Positions 12,927-33,855 of a stretch of DNA of 64,000 nt are shown here, piece by piece (the first letter of the stretch is position 1; each line of letters starts with the position of its first letter). The notes beneath the pieces are model-generated. The model was given only the letters and a program-made list of their open reading frames with translations. It had not been told where the DNA came from and ran no database searches. The stretch comes from Thiotrichaceae bacterium (lineage in GTDB: Bacteria > Pseudomonadota > Gammaproteobacteria > Thiotrichales > Thiotrichaceae), in contig WFRR01000106.1 of the NCBI GenBank assembly GCA_015486375.1, positions 1 to 64,000 on the forward strand, written 5' to 3'. Both the position numbers and the translations under genes were made by a program.

Positions 12927-15209
12927 CTATTTAGATTTTTTACCCGTCGTTAGTGGTGGAATCATAAATTTTAATGGATTATCACAACTCAATACTCGAT
13001 TTAACATTTCTGGGTCGGGTTGTTCACTTTTTATAATCTGTTTGATTTCTTTTGATACGGTTGCTTTATCCTTTAAATATTTAACGGTCGGGTATTTCTC
13101 ACTGAGCTTCTTATAAGCATTGATTCGCTGTTCAAGGTACATTTTTGCCGCAATGGTATTATTATCACGCATTGCCAGACAAGCAAGTCCATTATGTACT
13201 CGTGCAACCCGTCGTTTATTTTTCCACAAATCATCACCACCGTATTTATTTAGTACCGTAAAATATTGATGTTCCGCTGTATCATATTGCCCTTTTAAAA
13301 AGGCTAAATGCCCTGTTTCTTCATGTAAAAAAGCAATGGGTAAATTGTATATAGGATCAATTTCTTTCTCTTGAAAATCAGCTTCTTCACCTGCTTCTTT
13401 GGCTTTTCTTTTTGCCGCAGCATTGGCAATACTATTTGACTCTTCATGTGCCTGTACAATCGCCCATGCTTTTTGTAAAAGCCCATCAGAATAATTCAGG
13501 TCGCTCATATGAAAATAGCCATGAGCTTCAACAATATAGAACATAACGCGTGGCAGTTGTTTTTCGAGTGGAATATTTTTAAATACTTGATCTAAACGTA
13601 GACGAATATCGATCATACCTTTTAAACCCTCCCGTAAATTACCTTCATAAGCGGTAATTTCTGCAATCTTGCGTTGTATATGAGCAATATCGATTTCAGC
13701 ATTAATCGTATCTTCACGCTTATCCAAGACAGATCGGTAAATAGCTAATGCTTGGCGATAATAGTTTAATGCACCCTCCACATCACCTTGATTAAGGGCA
13801 TAAGGGTGTCCTGTGACTTCTGCCAAACGTGACAATGTACCCGCGTGCATAATTTGAATAGCCACATTATTCCCTGTTTTCAAGCTTAATTGACTAATAC
13901 GACTATTTGCGACTTCAATTAATTTTTGACGGATAGTTGTCGTTTGTGGCAACTCCTCCAAGGTATTATCCAAGTCATCAATCATGCCTTGGGTGAGTGT
14001 TCTGATTTGTTTAGTTTCCGTTTCAATCTGTAATTGATTCAGCCAAAAGCTACCACTAATGACAATGACAAATAACATGATTGAAGCAATAATCCAATAT
14101 TGAGGATTACGACGAATATGCTTTTGTAATACATACAAACTGCGATTACTGACCGCATTAACGGCGCGGTGATCTAAATAGTTTTGTAAATCAGAGACAA
14201 AAGATTGAGCACTAGCATAACGTTGTTGCTCATCTTCATGAGTGGCTTTTAAGAAAACTTGTCGTAACTCATAATCATCAATATGGGTCGAAATTTTATT
14301 GATATTCGGTTCAGGAAAAGGCGTATGTTTAGAAATGCTGGTATCAGGAACTTGACCTGATAAAGCATGAGATAACAAAATACCTAGACTAAAAATATCA
14401 TCCCCGATAACAGGGGTATATTGACGATGACGACTCGGGCTAGAATATTCAGGCGTTAAAGCAAAACTTTGTTCAGCCGTTTCTTCATTCGCTTCATTAT
14501 TATTTAAGTGTTGTGCAATGCCAAAATCTAATAATTTAAGCGTACCTTTATCGGTAATTAAAATATTAGCAGGCTTAATATCACAATGGATAATACCGTG
14601 GCGATGGGCTTCTTGGATAACCAAACCCAGTTTAATAATAAGCTCTAAAGTTTGTCGCGTATCTAACTTATTAGTTTGAATATATTCATCAATACTGACT
14701 CCCTCGACCAGCTCCATAATAAAATAATGAATATTACTATTGAGTGTACCGCCATCCAATAAGGTGACGATATTGGGATGATTAAGCTGAGCGAGAATCT
14801 GACGCTCACGTTTAAACAGTTGCGTCTCTAAGGTACTCGACTCAACAATTTTAATCGCCACATCCTGCTCATATTCACCATCAATACGATGGGCAAGATA
14901 CACACAGCCCATCCCGCCGTGTCCAAGAATTTCATCTAATTGATACACACCAATGGTTTTACCGAGGTAATCCATTTGACGTTTGCGACAAATTTTATTT
15001 TTTTGTGCCGTACTGAAGGTTTCTATCTGAATCGGTTCAGATAAGAATGTATTAGAGCGTGCATGAGCAGCAAGTAGGCTTTTGACTTCTTCATAGACTT
15101 CATCGCCTTCTTCACAATGTTGTTTTAAACAGACTAATTGCCGCTTCAATGGCTGCTCTAAACAGAGAATAAATAAATCTTCAATGTGGTCAAAATCTAT
15201 TTTAGCCAT
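12927..15209 (-). CDS. Membrane Ser/Thr protein kinase with periplasmic TPR-like region
   Basis: Hanks-type kinase of 760 residues. After an 80-residue N-terminal helical segment the kinase domain (about 85-350) has the Gly loop GHGGMG, K120 in VAIK, HCDIKPAN with catalytic D210, and DFG (D228). The HRD motif is HCD, so it is a non-RD kinase that may not need activation-loop phosphorylation. One membrane helix at 371-390 puts a 370-residue, helix-rich region with tetratricopeptide-like character outside the cytoplasm, probably the sensor. The ECF sigma gene lies 13 bp upstream on the same strand. Such sigma-kinase pairs work without a classical anti-sigma factor, the kinase phosphorylating the sigma factor; that function is inferred here. 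Confidence 0.92.
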   Translation of the reverse strand: MAKIDFDHIEDLFILCLEQPLKRQLVCLKQHCEEGDEVYEEVKSLLAAHARSNTFLSEPIQIETFSTAQKNKICRKRQMDYLGKTIGVYQLDEILGHGGMGCVYLAHRIDGEYEQDVAIKIVESSTLETQLFKRERQILAQLNHPNIVTLLDGGTLNSNIHYFIMELVEGVSIDEYIQTNKLDTRQTLELIIKLGLVIQEAHRHGIIHCDIKPANILITDKGTLKLLDFGIAQHLNNNEANEETAEQSFALTPEYSSPSRHRQYTPVIGDDIFSLGILLSHALSGQVPDTSISKHTPFPEPNINKISTHIDDYELRQVFLKATHEDEQQRYASAQSFVSDLQNYLDHRAVNAVSNRSLYVLQKHIRRNPQYWIIASIMLFVIVISGSFWLNQLQIETETKQIRTLTQGMIDDLDNTLEELPQTTTIRQKLIEVANSRISQLSLKTGNNVAIQIMHAGTLSRLAEVTGHPYALNQGDVEGALNYYRQALAIYRSVLDKREDTINAEIDIAHIQRKIAEITAYEGNLREGLKGMIDIRLRLDQVFKNIPLEKQLPRVMFYIVEAHGYFHMSDLNYSDGLLQKAWAIVQAHEESNSIANAAAKRKAKEAGEEADFQEKEIDPIYNLPIAFLHEETGHLAFLKGQYDTAEHQYFTVLNKYGGDDLWKNKRRVARVHNGLACLAMRDNNTIAAKMYLEQRINAYKKLSEKYPTVKYLKDKATVSKEIKQIIKSEQPDPEMLNRVLSCDNPLKFMIPPLTTGKKSK

Positions 15210-15222
15210 ATTTCTATTACAC

Positions 15223-15744
15223 TTATTGATTCATTTCACGGAATAGCCATGTCTTGGCCATTACCCACTTGCGTTTCACAGTCGCCACTGAAATATTCAG
15301 CGTATCAGCAATTTCAGTATTTTTCATACCTGCGAAAAAACGTAACTCTACGACTTGCTCTTGAGTTGGGTCTCTTTCTTTCAGTTTATGCATAAGAGAA
15401 TCTAATAAGATGAGATCAACATTATTCTGTTCATTGGGTTCAGAAACTAACTCTTCCTTTAAAGTTAATAGTGGTTGATTATTGCCTCGTTTTTGCGCCC
15501 CTCGTTCGCGCGCATAATCAACTAATACCTGTCGAATACAACGACTGGAAAGTGCCATAAAATGTGAGTGATCAATCGCTTCTAAATTTTTATGCTTATA
15601 TAATTTAAGATAGGCTTCATTCACCAATGCCGTAGGACATAACGTTTGGTTGCGATGATTGCGATAGATATGCCGTGCAGCGATACGTTTTAACTCGGGG
15701 TACACAGTGGCGGAAAAAATGGCGTGAAAGGCTGGGGCAGGCAT
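15223..15744 (-). CDS. ECF sigma factor of the kinase-linked (ECF43-like) type
   Basis: The 173-residue protein has region 2 (YPELKRIAARHIYRNHR, then PTALVNEAYLKLY and the FMALSSRCIRQVLVDYARE stretch typical of the PF07638 group) and region 4 (QEQVVELRFFAGMKNTEIAD, LNISVATVKRKWVMAKTWL). This group is commonly encoded next to Ser/Thr kinases; the EcfP/PknT pair of Vibrio parahaemolyticus is the studied case, in which sigma is activated by Thr phosphorylation. Here the kinase gene follows by 13 bp. No zinc-finger anti-sigma gene is adjacent. Its regulon cannot be read from this window. Confidence 0.88.
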   Translation of the reverse strand: MPAPAFHAIFSATVYPELKRIAARHIYRNHRNQTLCPTALVNEAYLKLYKHKNLEAIDHSHFMALSSRCIRQVLVDYARERGAQKRGNNQPLLTLKEELVSEPNEQNNVDLILLDSLMHKLKERDPTQEQVVELRFFAGMKNTEIADTLNISVATVKRKWVMAKTWLFREMNQ

Positions 15745-30142: not shown

Positions 30143-31402
30143 ATGTTACAGCTCTTCATTAGACTTCTATTGTCATTTTTATTGCTACCGATTGCCGTAG
30201 CAGAAAACAACACCATGAATATTTATTCTGATGTTGAAAATTCTGTTTATCAAATCCAAGTCTTACATAAACAAACAGGCAAAAAATCGGTCATCGGCTC
30301 AGGTTTTGTAGTTGGACAGAGTAATATTCTTGCCACCAATTATCATGTAGTCAGTAGTTACGTGACCGAACCTGAAACTTATAAGCTTGAATACTTTTCA
30401 ACTTCAGGTGAAAGAGGAAGCTTAGAACTATTGGATCTTGATATTGTGCATGATTTAGCCGTAGTTAAAGCCAAAAAATATCTTGGAAAACCCTTACAAT
30501 TAACGACTATTCCTGACAAGGGAGCGAGCTTATATTCACTCGGGAATCCTATGGACTTAGGTTTTTCCATTGTTGAAGGAACTAATAATGGCTTAATGAA
30601 GTACTCAGAAGATAAAAATATTTTATTCTCAGGGAGCTTAAATCCAGGTATGAGTGGCGGTCCGACACTAGATGCTGATGGTAATATTATTGGTATCAAT
30701 GTTGCCACATCAGGTAATGAAATCAGTTTTCTCGTCCCCGCTAAACATTTAGCCGCTATTCTGGAACGTTTGAAAGCTCGTAATTATATTGCTGAAAAGA
30801 GTTTTCTTAAACTCACTTCTAATCAACTCTTAAATGCTAATAGTACATTTTTAAAGCGTATTTTAAATGCCGATAAATGGGTTTATGAAAGTATCGGGGG
30901 ATTCAGTGTTCCCTCTGAGTTATCTCGCTCAGTACGCTGCTGGGATACCAGCCGTGAACCTGAAAAGGATGATTTATTTCGTTCCTTTTTTATTCGTTGT
31001 TCAAATGAGCGCAGTATTTATTTAGATACAGGTTTAGAGGTTGGTGTGGTTGAGTATGAGTATCAATGGCTCGAATCAGATGCACTCAATCCTGCCCGCT
31101 TTTATGATTATTATGAATACCTCAATACCAGTAACTTAGTCAGTGATGCGAATCAAAGTGATATTACTAATTTTTCTTGTAATACTCGCTTTGTTAATGT
31201 CAATCAACAAGAATTTAAAGTGACTATTTGTCGTCGTGATTATCGGAATTACACGGGACTCAGTGATGTATTGATTACGATGGCAATGGTAGGGCATAAA
31301 TCTCAAGGATTTATTTTTAATCTCGATATGCTGGGTACCGATTTTAATATGGCCTTAAAACTCTTTCAAAAAATGCTAGGAGAATTTAAATGGAACAAAT
31401 AA
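30143..31402 (+). CDS. Secreted trypsin-like (S1C/DegP-type) serine protease
   Basis: A 419-residue protein with a signal peptide (residues 1-20, cut after AVA) and a chymotrypsin-fold protease domain with an intact catalytic triad: H68 (TNYHVV), D104 (IVHDLAVVK), S171 (GMSGGP). No PDZ domain is seen. The last 200 residues (about 215-419) form an unrecognised domain with several Cys, possibly regulatory or substrate-binding. Its 3' end overlaps the FHA gene by 13 bp, so the two are coupled. An envelope quality-control or signal-cleaving role is inferred. Confidence 0.85.
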   Translation: MLQLFIRLLLSFLLLPIAVAENNTMNIYSDVENSVYQIQVLHKQTGKKSVIGSGFVVGQSNILATNYHVVSSYVTEPETYKLEYFSTSGERGSLELLDLDIVHDLAVVKAKKYLGKPLQLTTIPDKGASLYSLGNPMDLGFSIVEGTNNGLMKYSEDKNILFSGSLNPGMSGGPTLDADGNIIGINVATSGNEISFLVPAKHLAAILERLKARNYIAEKSFLKLTSNQLLNANSTFLKRILNADKWVYESIGGFSVPSELSRSVRCWDTSREPEKDDLFRSFFIRCSNERSIYLDTGLEVGVVEYEYQWLESDALNPARFYDYYEYLNTSNLVSDANQSDITNFSCNTRFVNVNQQEFKVTICRRDYRNYTGLSDVLITMAMVGHKSQGFIFNLDMLGTDFNMALKLFQKMLGEFKWNK

Positions 31403-32376
31403 TCCTAGAAATTCAAGCCAATGGTCTCAACCAATACCACCATATCGATGAATTTCCCGTCACTATTGGTCGAGCCTATGATAATGATATTATTTTATCA
31501 GACCGTTCTATTTCTGCTCATCATGTCATTATCGAATGTTCAGAACAAGGCAAACTCGTTTTTCATAATTTATCAAATGAAAATGGCACGATATTAAATA
31601 GTAAAAAATTAGATAACTGTCCAACTAAGGGAGGAATTCCCTCCATATTAAATCTTGGACATATACAGTTACGTATCGTCTCGCCTTCAACACGAGTGGA
31701 AACTACCTATAGGAATGAATGCGACCATATTTTTTGTGCAATGGGACAACATATGTGGAGTGCTGTTCTTTTGTTTTTTACGATGGGAGTGCTATTGCTA
31801 GAGCGTTATTTAGAAACGCCTTATGCTAGAGATGCACTGTATTACTTTACATTGGGCTTTCCCTACCTCATCGGTATTTTAATTTCCACCTTGTTTTTCG
31901 CAACCATTAGTCGTCTGACGGTACACCGTTGGCATTTTTTATCAATTATGTCGATTATTACCTTATTAATACTCTTCTCACAATTCCTTTCAAATATAGG
32001 GCATAGCTTAAATTACTTCTTTAGCTCTAATACACCCTTGGAAATTTCAGCCCAGATTAGTTATTTTATCTTGCCATTACTGTTGATTTTCTTTTTTACT
32101 AAAAAAATCTATCGTACTAATATTCCGATGACACTGGGTATTGCCTTTGTCATTAGCTTCTTTTACTCATTGCCTTACACGCTCGAATTAATTGACAGCT
32201 TAAATATTGAGGAAGAATACGCGGCCAATTCAACCAATACACCCCCCTACAATAAAACCTTAAGTTCTTTAGATATACGTGTTCAAAGCAGTCTTTCTGT
32301 GGACGAATTTATACAAGAAACCCAAGAAAAATTAAGTCAGGAAGTTCGAGAACATCTGATAGCAAATGCAGATTAA
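31390..32376 (+). CDS. Membrane protein with N-terminal FHA domain
   Basis: The 328-residue protein starts with an FHA phospho-threonine-binding domain (about 1-95) with G27-R28, S40, H44-H45 and N65-G66-T67 in the standard places. Five or six hydrophobic helices (about 120-275) follow, and a polar C-terminal tail. It resembles cytosolic pThr readers tethered to the membrane. It overlaps the upstream secreted protease gene by 13 bp. A Ser/Thr kinase that could supply the phosphorylated ligand is encoded about 15 kb away at 12927-15209. The partners are not known. Confidence 0.85.
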   Translation: MEQIILEIQANGLNQYHHIDEFPVTIGRAYDNDIILSDRSISAHHVIIECSEQGKLVFHNLSNENGTILNSKKLDNCPTKGGIPSILNLGHIQLRIVSPSTRVETTYRNECDHIFCAMGQHMWSAVLLFFTMGVLLLERYLETPYARDALYYFTLGFPYLIGILISTLFFATISRLTVHRWHFLSIMSIITLLILFSQFLSNIGHSLNYFFSSNTPLEISAQISYFILPLLLIFFFTKKIYRTNIPMTLGIAFVISFFYSLPYTLELIDSLNIEEEYAANSTNTPPYNKTLSSLDIRVQSSLSVDEFIQETQEKLSQEVREHLIANAD

Positions 32377-32474
32377 AGTATTTAAGGCTTGTTTCTGCTA
32401 TCTACTTGATTTAATTTTGTTAAACTACTATGTTTTTTAAAGTCACTACAATGAGTTAGGCATATCAAAATATC

Positions 32475-33038
32475 ATGGACGAGTTAAAAAATAATTTCGG
32501 AAAAATAGCAGAGACACCTTCTGTTTCCATCAAGAAGCAGCATTCTCAGTTTCTACGGGTCATTATTCCCAGTAGCTTGATTATAATCGCTGTATTGGTG
32601 AGCTTACCGTATGCCTATAGTTACTATCAAAAAAACACTTCTGCTCAATTATCACAGTACAATGTACAAAAACAATTGGATTATTTATTAAGCTACCCCG
32701 ATGTAGCAGAATATGCATGGATGCGTAGTTTAAATCCAATTGCTAAAGCTATTGAAGGTAGTATTGTTTGGAGTCAGGCAGAACATGATGGGGTGATGAA
32801 GTTTAAAAACTTACCTGCGACATCAAAACAACAACAATATCATTTACGCATATATGATCGTAATACCACCGAAGCTTTTTCTACCGCTGTATTTCAACAA
32901 GGTAAATTTATGCAAGATTCACGTATTGTGGCATTTAAAGCCAATAGCAAAGTAAAATCACCGTATAAATTTATTCTTAGTCTAGAAAGTATCCAAGGTG
33001 TAGAAGAAGAACAAATTTTACTGCGCGCTCAGCCATAA
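32475..33038 (+). CDS. Single-pass membrane protein with RskA-like extracytoplasmic domain
   Basis: A 187-residue protein: short cytoplasmic N-terminus (about 27 residues), one membrane helix (about 28-48, VIIPSSLIIIAVLVSLPYAY), then a periplasmic domain. That domain carries the pattern of the anti-sigma-K factor RskA C-terminal family: GSIVWSQAEHDGVMKFKNLP, then YHLRIYDRNTTE and AVFQQGKF. The usual cytoplasmic zinc-binding anti-sigma domain is absent; the N-terminus is too short and has no HxxxCxxC motif. It is thus an orphan sensor-like half, 98 bp after the FHA gene. Any sigma-factor link is inference. Confidence 0.6.
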   Translation: MDELKNNFGKIAETPSVSIKKQHSQFLRVIIPSSLIIIAVLVSLPYAYSYYQKNTSAQLSQYNVQKQLDYLLSYPDVAEYAWMRSLNPIAKAIEGSIVWSQAEHDGVMKFKNLPATSKQQQYHLRIYDRNTTEAFSTAVFQQGKFMQDSRIVAFKANSKVKSPYKFILSLESIQGVEEEQILLRAQP

Positions 33039-33084
33039 TATTGCTATTCAATTATTTTTTATTGACTTAAATAAATCTCACATT

Positions 33085-33855
33085 ATGATAAATTCTCTCA
33101 AAATCAGCGTATTGCTAAGCATCTTGTTTAGCCTTTCTTTTCCTAGCTATGCAGCATCGAACCCTAATAAGACCCATATTTTTATCTTAGCAGGACAATC
33201 CAATATGATGGGACGCGGTGCAACAACAAAGCTGCCTGTTAATCTACGTCAACAACCCGAAAATATAGAGTTTTATACGCATGGGCGACAATCAGGTTTA
33301 GCTAAATATCAATATTTCGGACCTGAAGTACAATTCGCTCATGCAATGGCAAAAATTTTCCCAAAAGAAAAAATTATTATTATTAAATCCGCTGCGAGTG
33401 GCTCTTCTATTCAAGAATGGTTACCGAGTAAAGCTCTGTATCAAGGCTTATTACGCCAAGTAAAATTTGTAGCTCCATCTAATGGCAGTAAAATTGAAGC
33501 CATTGTATGGATGCAGGGTGAAACGGATGCGCGGACTGAAGCAAGCGCGAATAGCTATGCAAAGAATCTAAAACATTTTATCCAAACCTTACGTCAAGAT
33601 TTAAATGCTAATCATGTGCCTTTTTTAATTGGGCAGATCAATCAAAAAAATAGCAGCTTTCCGATGGAAAAGCAGGTACGAGCGGCACAGGCACAAGTGG
33701 CTAAAGAGCTATCGAATACACTGCTGGTATCCAATGATGGCTTAACCATGATTTATGATAAGGTTCACTACGATGCTAAGGGATTAATTGAACTAGGACG
33801 ACGTTTTGCGATTAGTTTTGTCAATTATCGTAAACAACAATTACAAAAAGATTAG
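33085..33855 (+). CDS. Secreted SGNH esterase of the SASA (sialate O-acetylesterase/CE6) type
   Basis: A 256-residue protein with a signal peptide (about 1-23, ending SYAA). The esterase domain shows block I GQSN (37-40, nucleophile S39), Gly/Asn oxyanion residues (KSAASGSS), WMQGETDA (block III equivalent) and the catalytic Asp-His pair in MIYDKVHYDAKG. The family removes acetyl groups from carbohydrates such as xylan or acetylated sugars, so a cell-wall or exopolysaccharide substrate is likely. It lies 46 bp after the RskA-like gene, on the same strand as the protease and FHA genes. Confidence 0.85.
   Translation: MINSLKISVLLSILFSLSFPSYAASNPNKTHIFILAGQSNMMGRGATTKLPVNLRQQPENIEFYTHGRQSGLAKYQYFGPEVQFAHAMAKIFPKEKIIIIKSAASGSSIQEWLPSKALYQGLLRQVKFVAPSNGSKIEAIVWMQGETDARTEASANSYAKNLKHFIQTLRQDLNANHVPFLIGQINQKNSSFPMEKQVRAAQAQVAKELSNTLLVSNDGLTMIYDKVHYDAKGLIELGRRFAISFVNYRKQQLQKD

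Follow-up and report, generated by a model that had tools for sequence, protein, structure and literature searches.

A conserved gene pair of an HtrA-like protease and an FHA membrane protein in Pseudomonadota and its possible role in phosphothreonine control of envelope proteolysis

Only a few routes are known for cytoplasmic Ser/Thr phosphorylation to reach the Gram-negative periplasm. A run of four genes in a Thiotrichaceae bacterium raises the question of whether such a route is encoded here and, if so, by which of these genes. The window analysed (the whole stretch of 64,000 nucleotides from contig WFRR01000106.1) belongs to a 2.67-Mb draft genome. A preliminary description had joined a secreted protease, an FHA-domain membrane protein, an RskA-like protein and an esterase into one envelope “cluster” and had connected it with an ECF sigma factor and a Ser/Thr kinase encoded elsewhere in the window. 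The four reading frames are indeed present, all on the same strand (Table 1), and the description was also correct about the catalytic triad of the protease (H68, D104, S171) and the overlap of the first two genes. The conserved unit, however, comprises only these two genes, as follows from gene order in the relatives.

Table 1. Features of the locus, with positions counted from the first nucleotide of the window.
Feature	Positions	Strand	Basis
HtrA-like (S1C-type) secreted serine protease, 419 aa, no PDZ domain	30143-31402	+	Trypsin_2, Foldseek, triad conservation
Predicted signal peptide of the protease, residues 1-20, AVA|EN	30143-30202	+	Sequence, by inspection, no predictor
Protease C-terminal domain, residues ~215-419, invariant C266/C286/C346/C363	30785-31399	+	Alignment, Pfam/PDB searches
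13-nt overlap of protease stop and partner start	31390-31402	+	Conserved start offset, 88 loci
FHA-5TM membrane partner, 328 aa	31390-32376	+	Pfam FHA, AF2 model, adjacent to protease in all readable loci
Cytoplasmic FHA domain, predicted pThr pocket R28, S42, H45, N65	31390-31683	+	Foldseek, alignment to solved FHA domains, conservation
Five predicted TM helices: 121-142, 149-178, 183-211, 215-241, 245-280	31750-32229	+	AF2, K+R per loop
Predicted periplasmic C-terminal tail, P285, Y287, L291, F307 motif and terminal helix	32230-32373	+	Conservation, AF2, loop charge
RskA-like single-pass protein, third gene	32475-33038	+	ORF; weak RskA_C match
Secreted SASA-type carbohydrate esterase (PF03629), fourth gene	33085-33855	+	Pfam
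ECF sigma factor of TIGR02999, Ser/Thr kinase directly downstream	12927-15744	-	Family match

The pairing of the protease with the FHA protein is conserved across genomes far beyond chance. In all 88 distinct readable loci, representing more than 20 families of Pseudomonadota, the two genes are adjacent with the FHA partner immediately downstream, and the partner starts at offset -13 in 61 loci, -10 in 10, -16 in 7 and -4 in 5. Within the Thiotrichaceae-type family, the two genes overlap by 13 or 16 nt, also when the FHA proteins share only about 30% identity. The pair was found in Thiotrichaceae, in many other families of Gammaproteobacteria and in five genomes of other classes. A long homolog of the FHA protein is present in 53 of the 60 genomes of the Thiotrichaceae-type family; the seven genomes lacking it are all drafts of 93% completeness or less, and in two of them (G026 and G034) the protease match is only partial as well. 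The closest named relatives are two Thiotrichaceae metagenome-assembled genomes with proteases 76-77% identical to that of the window, the only two returned when contigs were scanned with the single protease. A profile of the protease C-terminal domain matched 25 of 369 Gammaproteobacteria genomes (including one spurious short match, in G303) together with the five genomes of other classes. The profile of the partner membrane part matched 17 of the 369, all within the 25, and this search revealed no membrane part without the protease among these genomes.

No third gene recurs beside the pair in the distant neighbourhoods, and none is conserved throughout 20 neighbourhoods of 13-19 kb; the unit therefore consists of two genes. 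Its flanks vary by genus: amiC-tsaE-queG occurs in about half and hemL with an RsmE-like gene in others (gene identities by inspection). The protease and FHA genes are thus certainly one two-gene pair. Plasmids gave no match to the FHA partner and no near full-length match to the protease, and the scan for promoters and terminators performed no better than on shuffled sequences. A literature search, with most subscription journals outside its reach, found no published description of the pair, the parts of which belong to known superfamilies.

The two remaining genes have other affinities. The third gene matches RskA_C at only 13.9 bits (E=0.066), well below the cut-off of 29.4, and this weak match does not place the protein in the family; as the preliminary description stated, the window protein lacks an anti-sigma zinc domain, and no cognate sigma gene is found among the recurrent neighbours of its orthologs in 19 relatives. 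These orthologs (L087-L105) have a conserved C-terminal AQP ending and often adjoin a YcaO-like gene. The esterase is a clear SASA carbohydrate esterase (Pfam, E=6e-49), and its gene lies just upstream of thiG.

The earlier proposal of a four-gene system, with the RskA-like protein as a sensor and the ECF sigma factor and kinase in control, has in its favour the common strand and short gaps of the genes in the window, but we consider it very improbable. Most genomes of the family have a single RskA-like ortholog located away from the pair, also within the same genus (G001), and the window genome is the only one where it adjoins the pair; neither this gene nor the esterase accompanies the pair in any other of the 20 neighbourhoods. 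A four-gene operon is therefore contradicted by gene order in relatives. The TIGR02999 sigma factor is present in 21 of 60 family genomes, against 53 of 60 for the pair, so that most pair-bearing genomes of the family lack it, and the three genomes outside the family that encode this sigma factor all lack the pair. The supposed co-occurrence of the pair with the ECF sigma/kinase genes is not borne out by this distribution, on which we reject their coupling: the protease-FHA module does not depend on the TIGR02999 sigma factor.

The protease combines a familiar catalytic domain with an unfamiliar C-terminal one. It matches Trypsin_2 of Pfam (E=2e-20), its best Foldseek matches are S1C/HtrA/DegS structures in a list dominated by the S1 domain, and its AF2 model has a mean pLDDT of 89. 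The residues of the triad are invariant in 88 of 88 loci, and A20, the last residue of the predicted signal peptide, is nearly invariant among 35 homologs. The four cysteines of the C-terminal domain are also invariant in all 88 loci, which suggests disulfides; such bonds would place the domain in the periplasm. Thus, the S1C domain and the intact triad of the HtrA/Deg proteases are present but the C-terminal PDZ domain is not: Pfam scans of the whole protein and of the C-terminal domain detected none, and the scores against the NCBIfam HtrA models do not exceed 59 bits, with cut-offs of at least 250. The C-terminal domain itself, about 200 residues long, has no Pfam match in the window protein; its homologs show no recurrent Pfam family, and a sequence search of the PDB gave no match. 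The pair defines a widespread protease domain unrecognised by the family libraries used.

The partner is, as had been described, an FHA domain on a multi-pass membrane protein. Both Pfam (44.6 bits against a cut-off of 20.7) and Foldseek, where the matches of the N-terminal domain are FHA structures, assign it to this fold. The FHA pocket of the window protein is intact, since R28, S42, H45 and N65-G66 align with solved FHA domains, including that of Rv1747. Among FHA-bearing homologs, the pocket Arg is found in 75 of 80 and the Ser in 52 of 80; in about 30% of them Ser42 is replaced by Ala or Cys, which may weaken phosphate binding. The AF2 model has five transmembrane helices (mean pLDDT 88), and the drop of pLDDT to about 53-56 in residues 281-300 indicates a partly disordered tail. 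The two predicted inner loops average 2.04 Lys and Arg each and the outer loops only 0.85 and 0.20, a distribution to which the positive-inside rule can be applied. With the FHA domain inside and an odd number of helices, the C-terminal tail is predicted to be periplasmic, on the same side as the protease. The tail carries a conserved motif, PxYNxxL…F, in which P285, Y287 and F307 rank with the best conserved residues, and it reaches 1.53 bits per column, compared with 1.13-1.33 in the transmembrane helices. The partner is not the FHA protein associated with type VI secretion (TagH), for which it scores 16.2 bits against an NCBIfam cut-off of 120, and the neighbourhoods of the pair contain no recurrent T6SS gene.

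All 80 pair-bearing hosts tested outside the family f149 encode a Hanks-type kinase that passes the Pfam cut-off (with a best E of 1e-20 or lower); however, 301 of the 369 Gammaproteobacteria genomes have such a match, so that kinase presence alone says little. Outside f149, 73 of 74 loci retain the phosphate-binding Arg28 of FHA; in the exception, G259, the pocket is broken though kinases are present. In f149, the pair occurs in 12 of 12 genomes, and the kinase matches are absent, partial or atypical (best E 2.8e-14), for example a lanthipeptide-synthetase-like protein and a kinase of about 500 aa beside a PP2C phosphatase. The FHA domain is absent in six of these genomes (G207, G429, G432, G433, G434 and G435) and lacks Arg28 in four (G319, G427, G430 and G431), while two (G426 and G428) keep Arg28. 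At the FHA-less loci, the protease, the transmembrane core and a YxxxL-type tail persist.

A Fisher test of FHA or Arg loss against f149 membership, on nearly these counts, gives p of about 1e-10 for genomes that are not independent, and the tree indicates at least two losses within one clade, only partly independent and with moderate support. The association holds at the level of this one family, on which it rests. A rule by which FHA is lost exactly where the kinase is lost is untrue genome by genome, since the FHA-less G432, G434 and G435 have atypical kinases and Arg28 is retained in G426, a genome with no kinase match at all. Of the earlier claims on Ser/Thr kinases, the general link is thus supported by FHA decay in a family without typical kinases, although the tie to the ECF sigma/kinase pair of the window is not. 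The f149 sequences give the best clue to the mechanism: FHA behaves as an optional input, droppable where there is little to read, while the protease is still accompanied by the membrane core and the tail; the protease, transmembrane core and tail appear to be the working unit.

Any mechanism has to accommodate the obligate pairing, the invariant catalytic residues, the conserved phosphothreonine pocket and the erosion of FHA in hosts without typical kinases. The pair probably connects signalling by Ser/Thr kinases with envelope proteolysis. The protease would be exported to the periplasm with a disulfide-rich C-terminal domain in place of PDZ, and its partner would be a five-helix inner-membrane protein with a cytoplasmic FHA domain and a periplasmic tail. 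Phosphothreonine on a substrate of a Hanks kinase, or on the kinase itself, would dock in the FHA domain; this docking would alter the membrane protein, which via its tail would reposition the protease or change its activity. We give such “inside-out” control, in which phosphothreonine binding in the cytoplasm modulates the periplasmic protease, a little less than an even chance. More tentatively still, the chain from the FHA reader through the five-helix protein to the HtrA-like protease may represent an undescribed module of many Pseudomonadota families. Within this scheme, the topology is predicted, and we infer that the tail touches the protease, which way the signal runs, and that a kinase and substrates take part.

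The signal could also run outside-in, as in the DegS-RseA relay: under envelope stress the protease would cut or sense the partner tail, and the FHA protein would then release or capture a phosphorylated cytoplasmic protein. The HtrA/DegS-like fold of the protease agrees with this possibility, for which the conserved, partly disordered tail on the protease side would be a plausible substrate. It is nevertheless unlikely, because the six FHA-less f149 genomes would have lost the “output” and retained the protease, the transmembrane part and the tail, the pair has no conserved neighbour that could serve as an output (DNA-binding, anti-sigma or other), and the protease has no PDZ stress sensor. 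We are slightly more doubtful that the partner is an anchor or chaperone, which would hold the protease at the inner membrane while FHA localises the complex, without gating, to a phosphorylated scaffold, for instance a division or cell-wall complex. A stoichiometric complex of this kind would agree with the obligate pairing and the translational overlap, and FHA is dispensable in f149; yet the near-complete retention of the FHA Arg elsewhere and a tail conserved beyond the needs of bare tethering argue against a passive anchor, although both are still compatible with localisation. Between these possibilities, we favour inside-out control.

Several known systems resemble the pair in part. Like DegS and DegP, its protease is an S1C-type chymotrypsin-fold enzyme exported to the envelope, and DegS-type structures are among its best structural matches, but it differs from HtrA/Deg proteins in lacking PDZ, in its unclassified four-cysteine domain, in scoring far under all HtrA family cut-offs and in its obligate FHA partner. 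The DegS-RseA relay similarly couples an envelope protease to a protein that reaches from the periplasm through the inner membrane into the cytoplasm, while the partner here is a five-helix FHA protein rather than a single-pass anti-sigma factor, and no sigma factor lies beside the pair. The top structural match, the S1C-NTF2 part of RsgI9 (PDB 7SJY), shares the S1C fold and an extra C-terminal domain; the similarity is confined to the S1C part (rmsd of 16 A over the full alignment), and RsgI9 is one anti-sigma protein rather than the product of a gene pair.

On the side of the FHA domain, the threonine-phosphorylation pathway of type VI secretion (PpkA, Fha, TssL) switches an envelope machine by means of an FHA protein that recognises phosphothreonine at the inner membrane (PMC3953482). 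It is a functional parallel rather than a relative, with no secretion genes conserved beside the pair, whose output is a protease. The FHA-ABC transporter Rv1747, the pocket of which aligns with that of the partner, and FhaB/FipA likewise tie bacterial FHA domains to membrane proteins, but they have no protease partner and a different membrane domain. Trypsin-like peptidases and, elsewhere in the same systems, FHA domains occur in trypsin-containing conflict systems (PMC7159879), from which the pair differs by its exported protease and the lack of conserved STAND, vWA or MoxR genes. A defence-system reading was rejected: PADLOC has no model for the FHA partner, and the protease obtained only generic trypsin-domain matches.

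If our reading is true, the two-gene module represents a route for cytoplasmic phosphorylation to reach the periplasm, with an FHA reader on one side of the membrane and an HtrA-like protease on the other. The pair is compact and widespread, and f149, which has no typical kinases, offers natural FHA-less versions for comparison.

Two minor observations concern individual f149 genomes. In G432, a gene for an atypical kinase of about 497 aa with a cysteine-rich C-terminal part overlaps a PP2C-like phosphatase gene (L175:808-3358). In G434 and G433 (L182 and L183), the FHA domain of the partner is apparently replaced by a charged, low-complexity N-terminus of about 70 residues.
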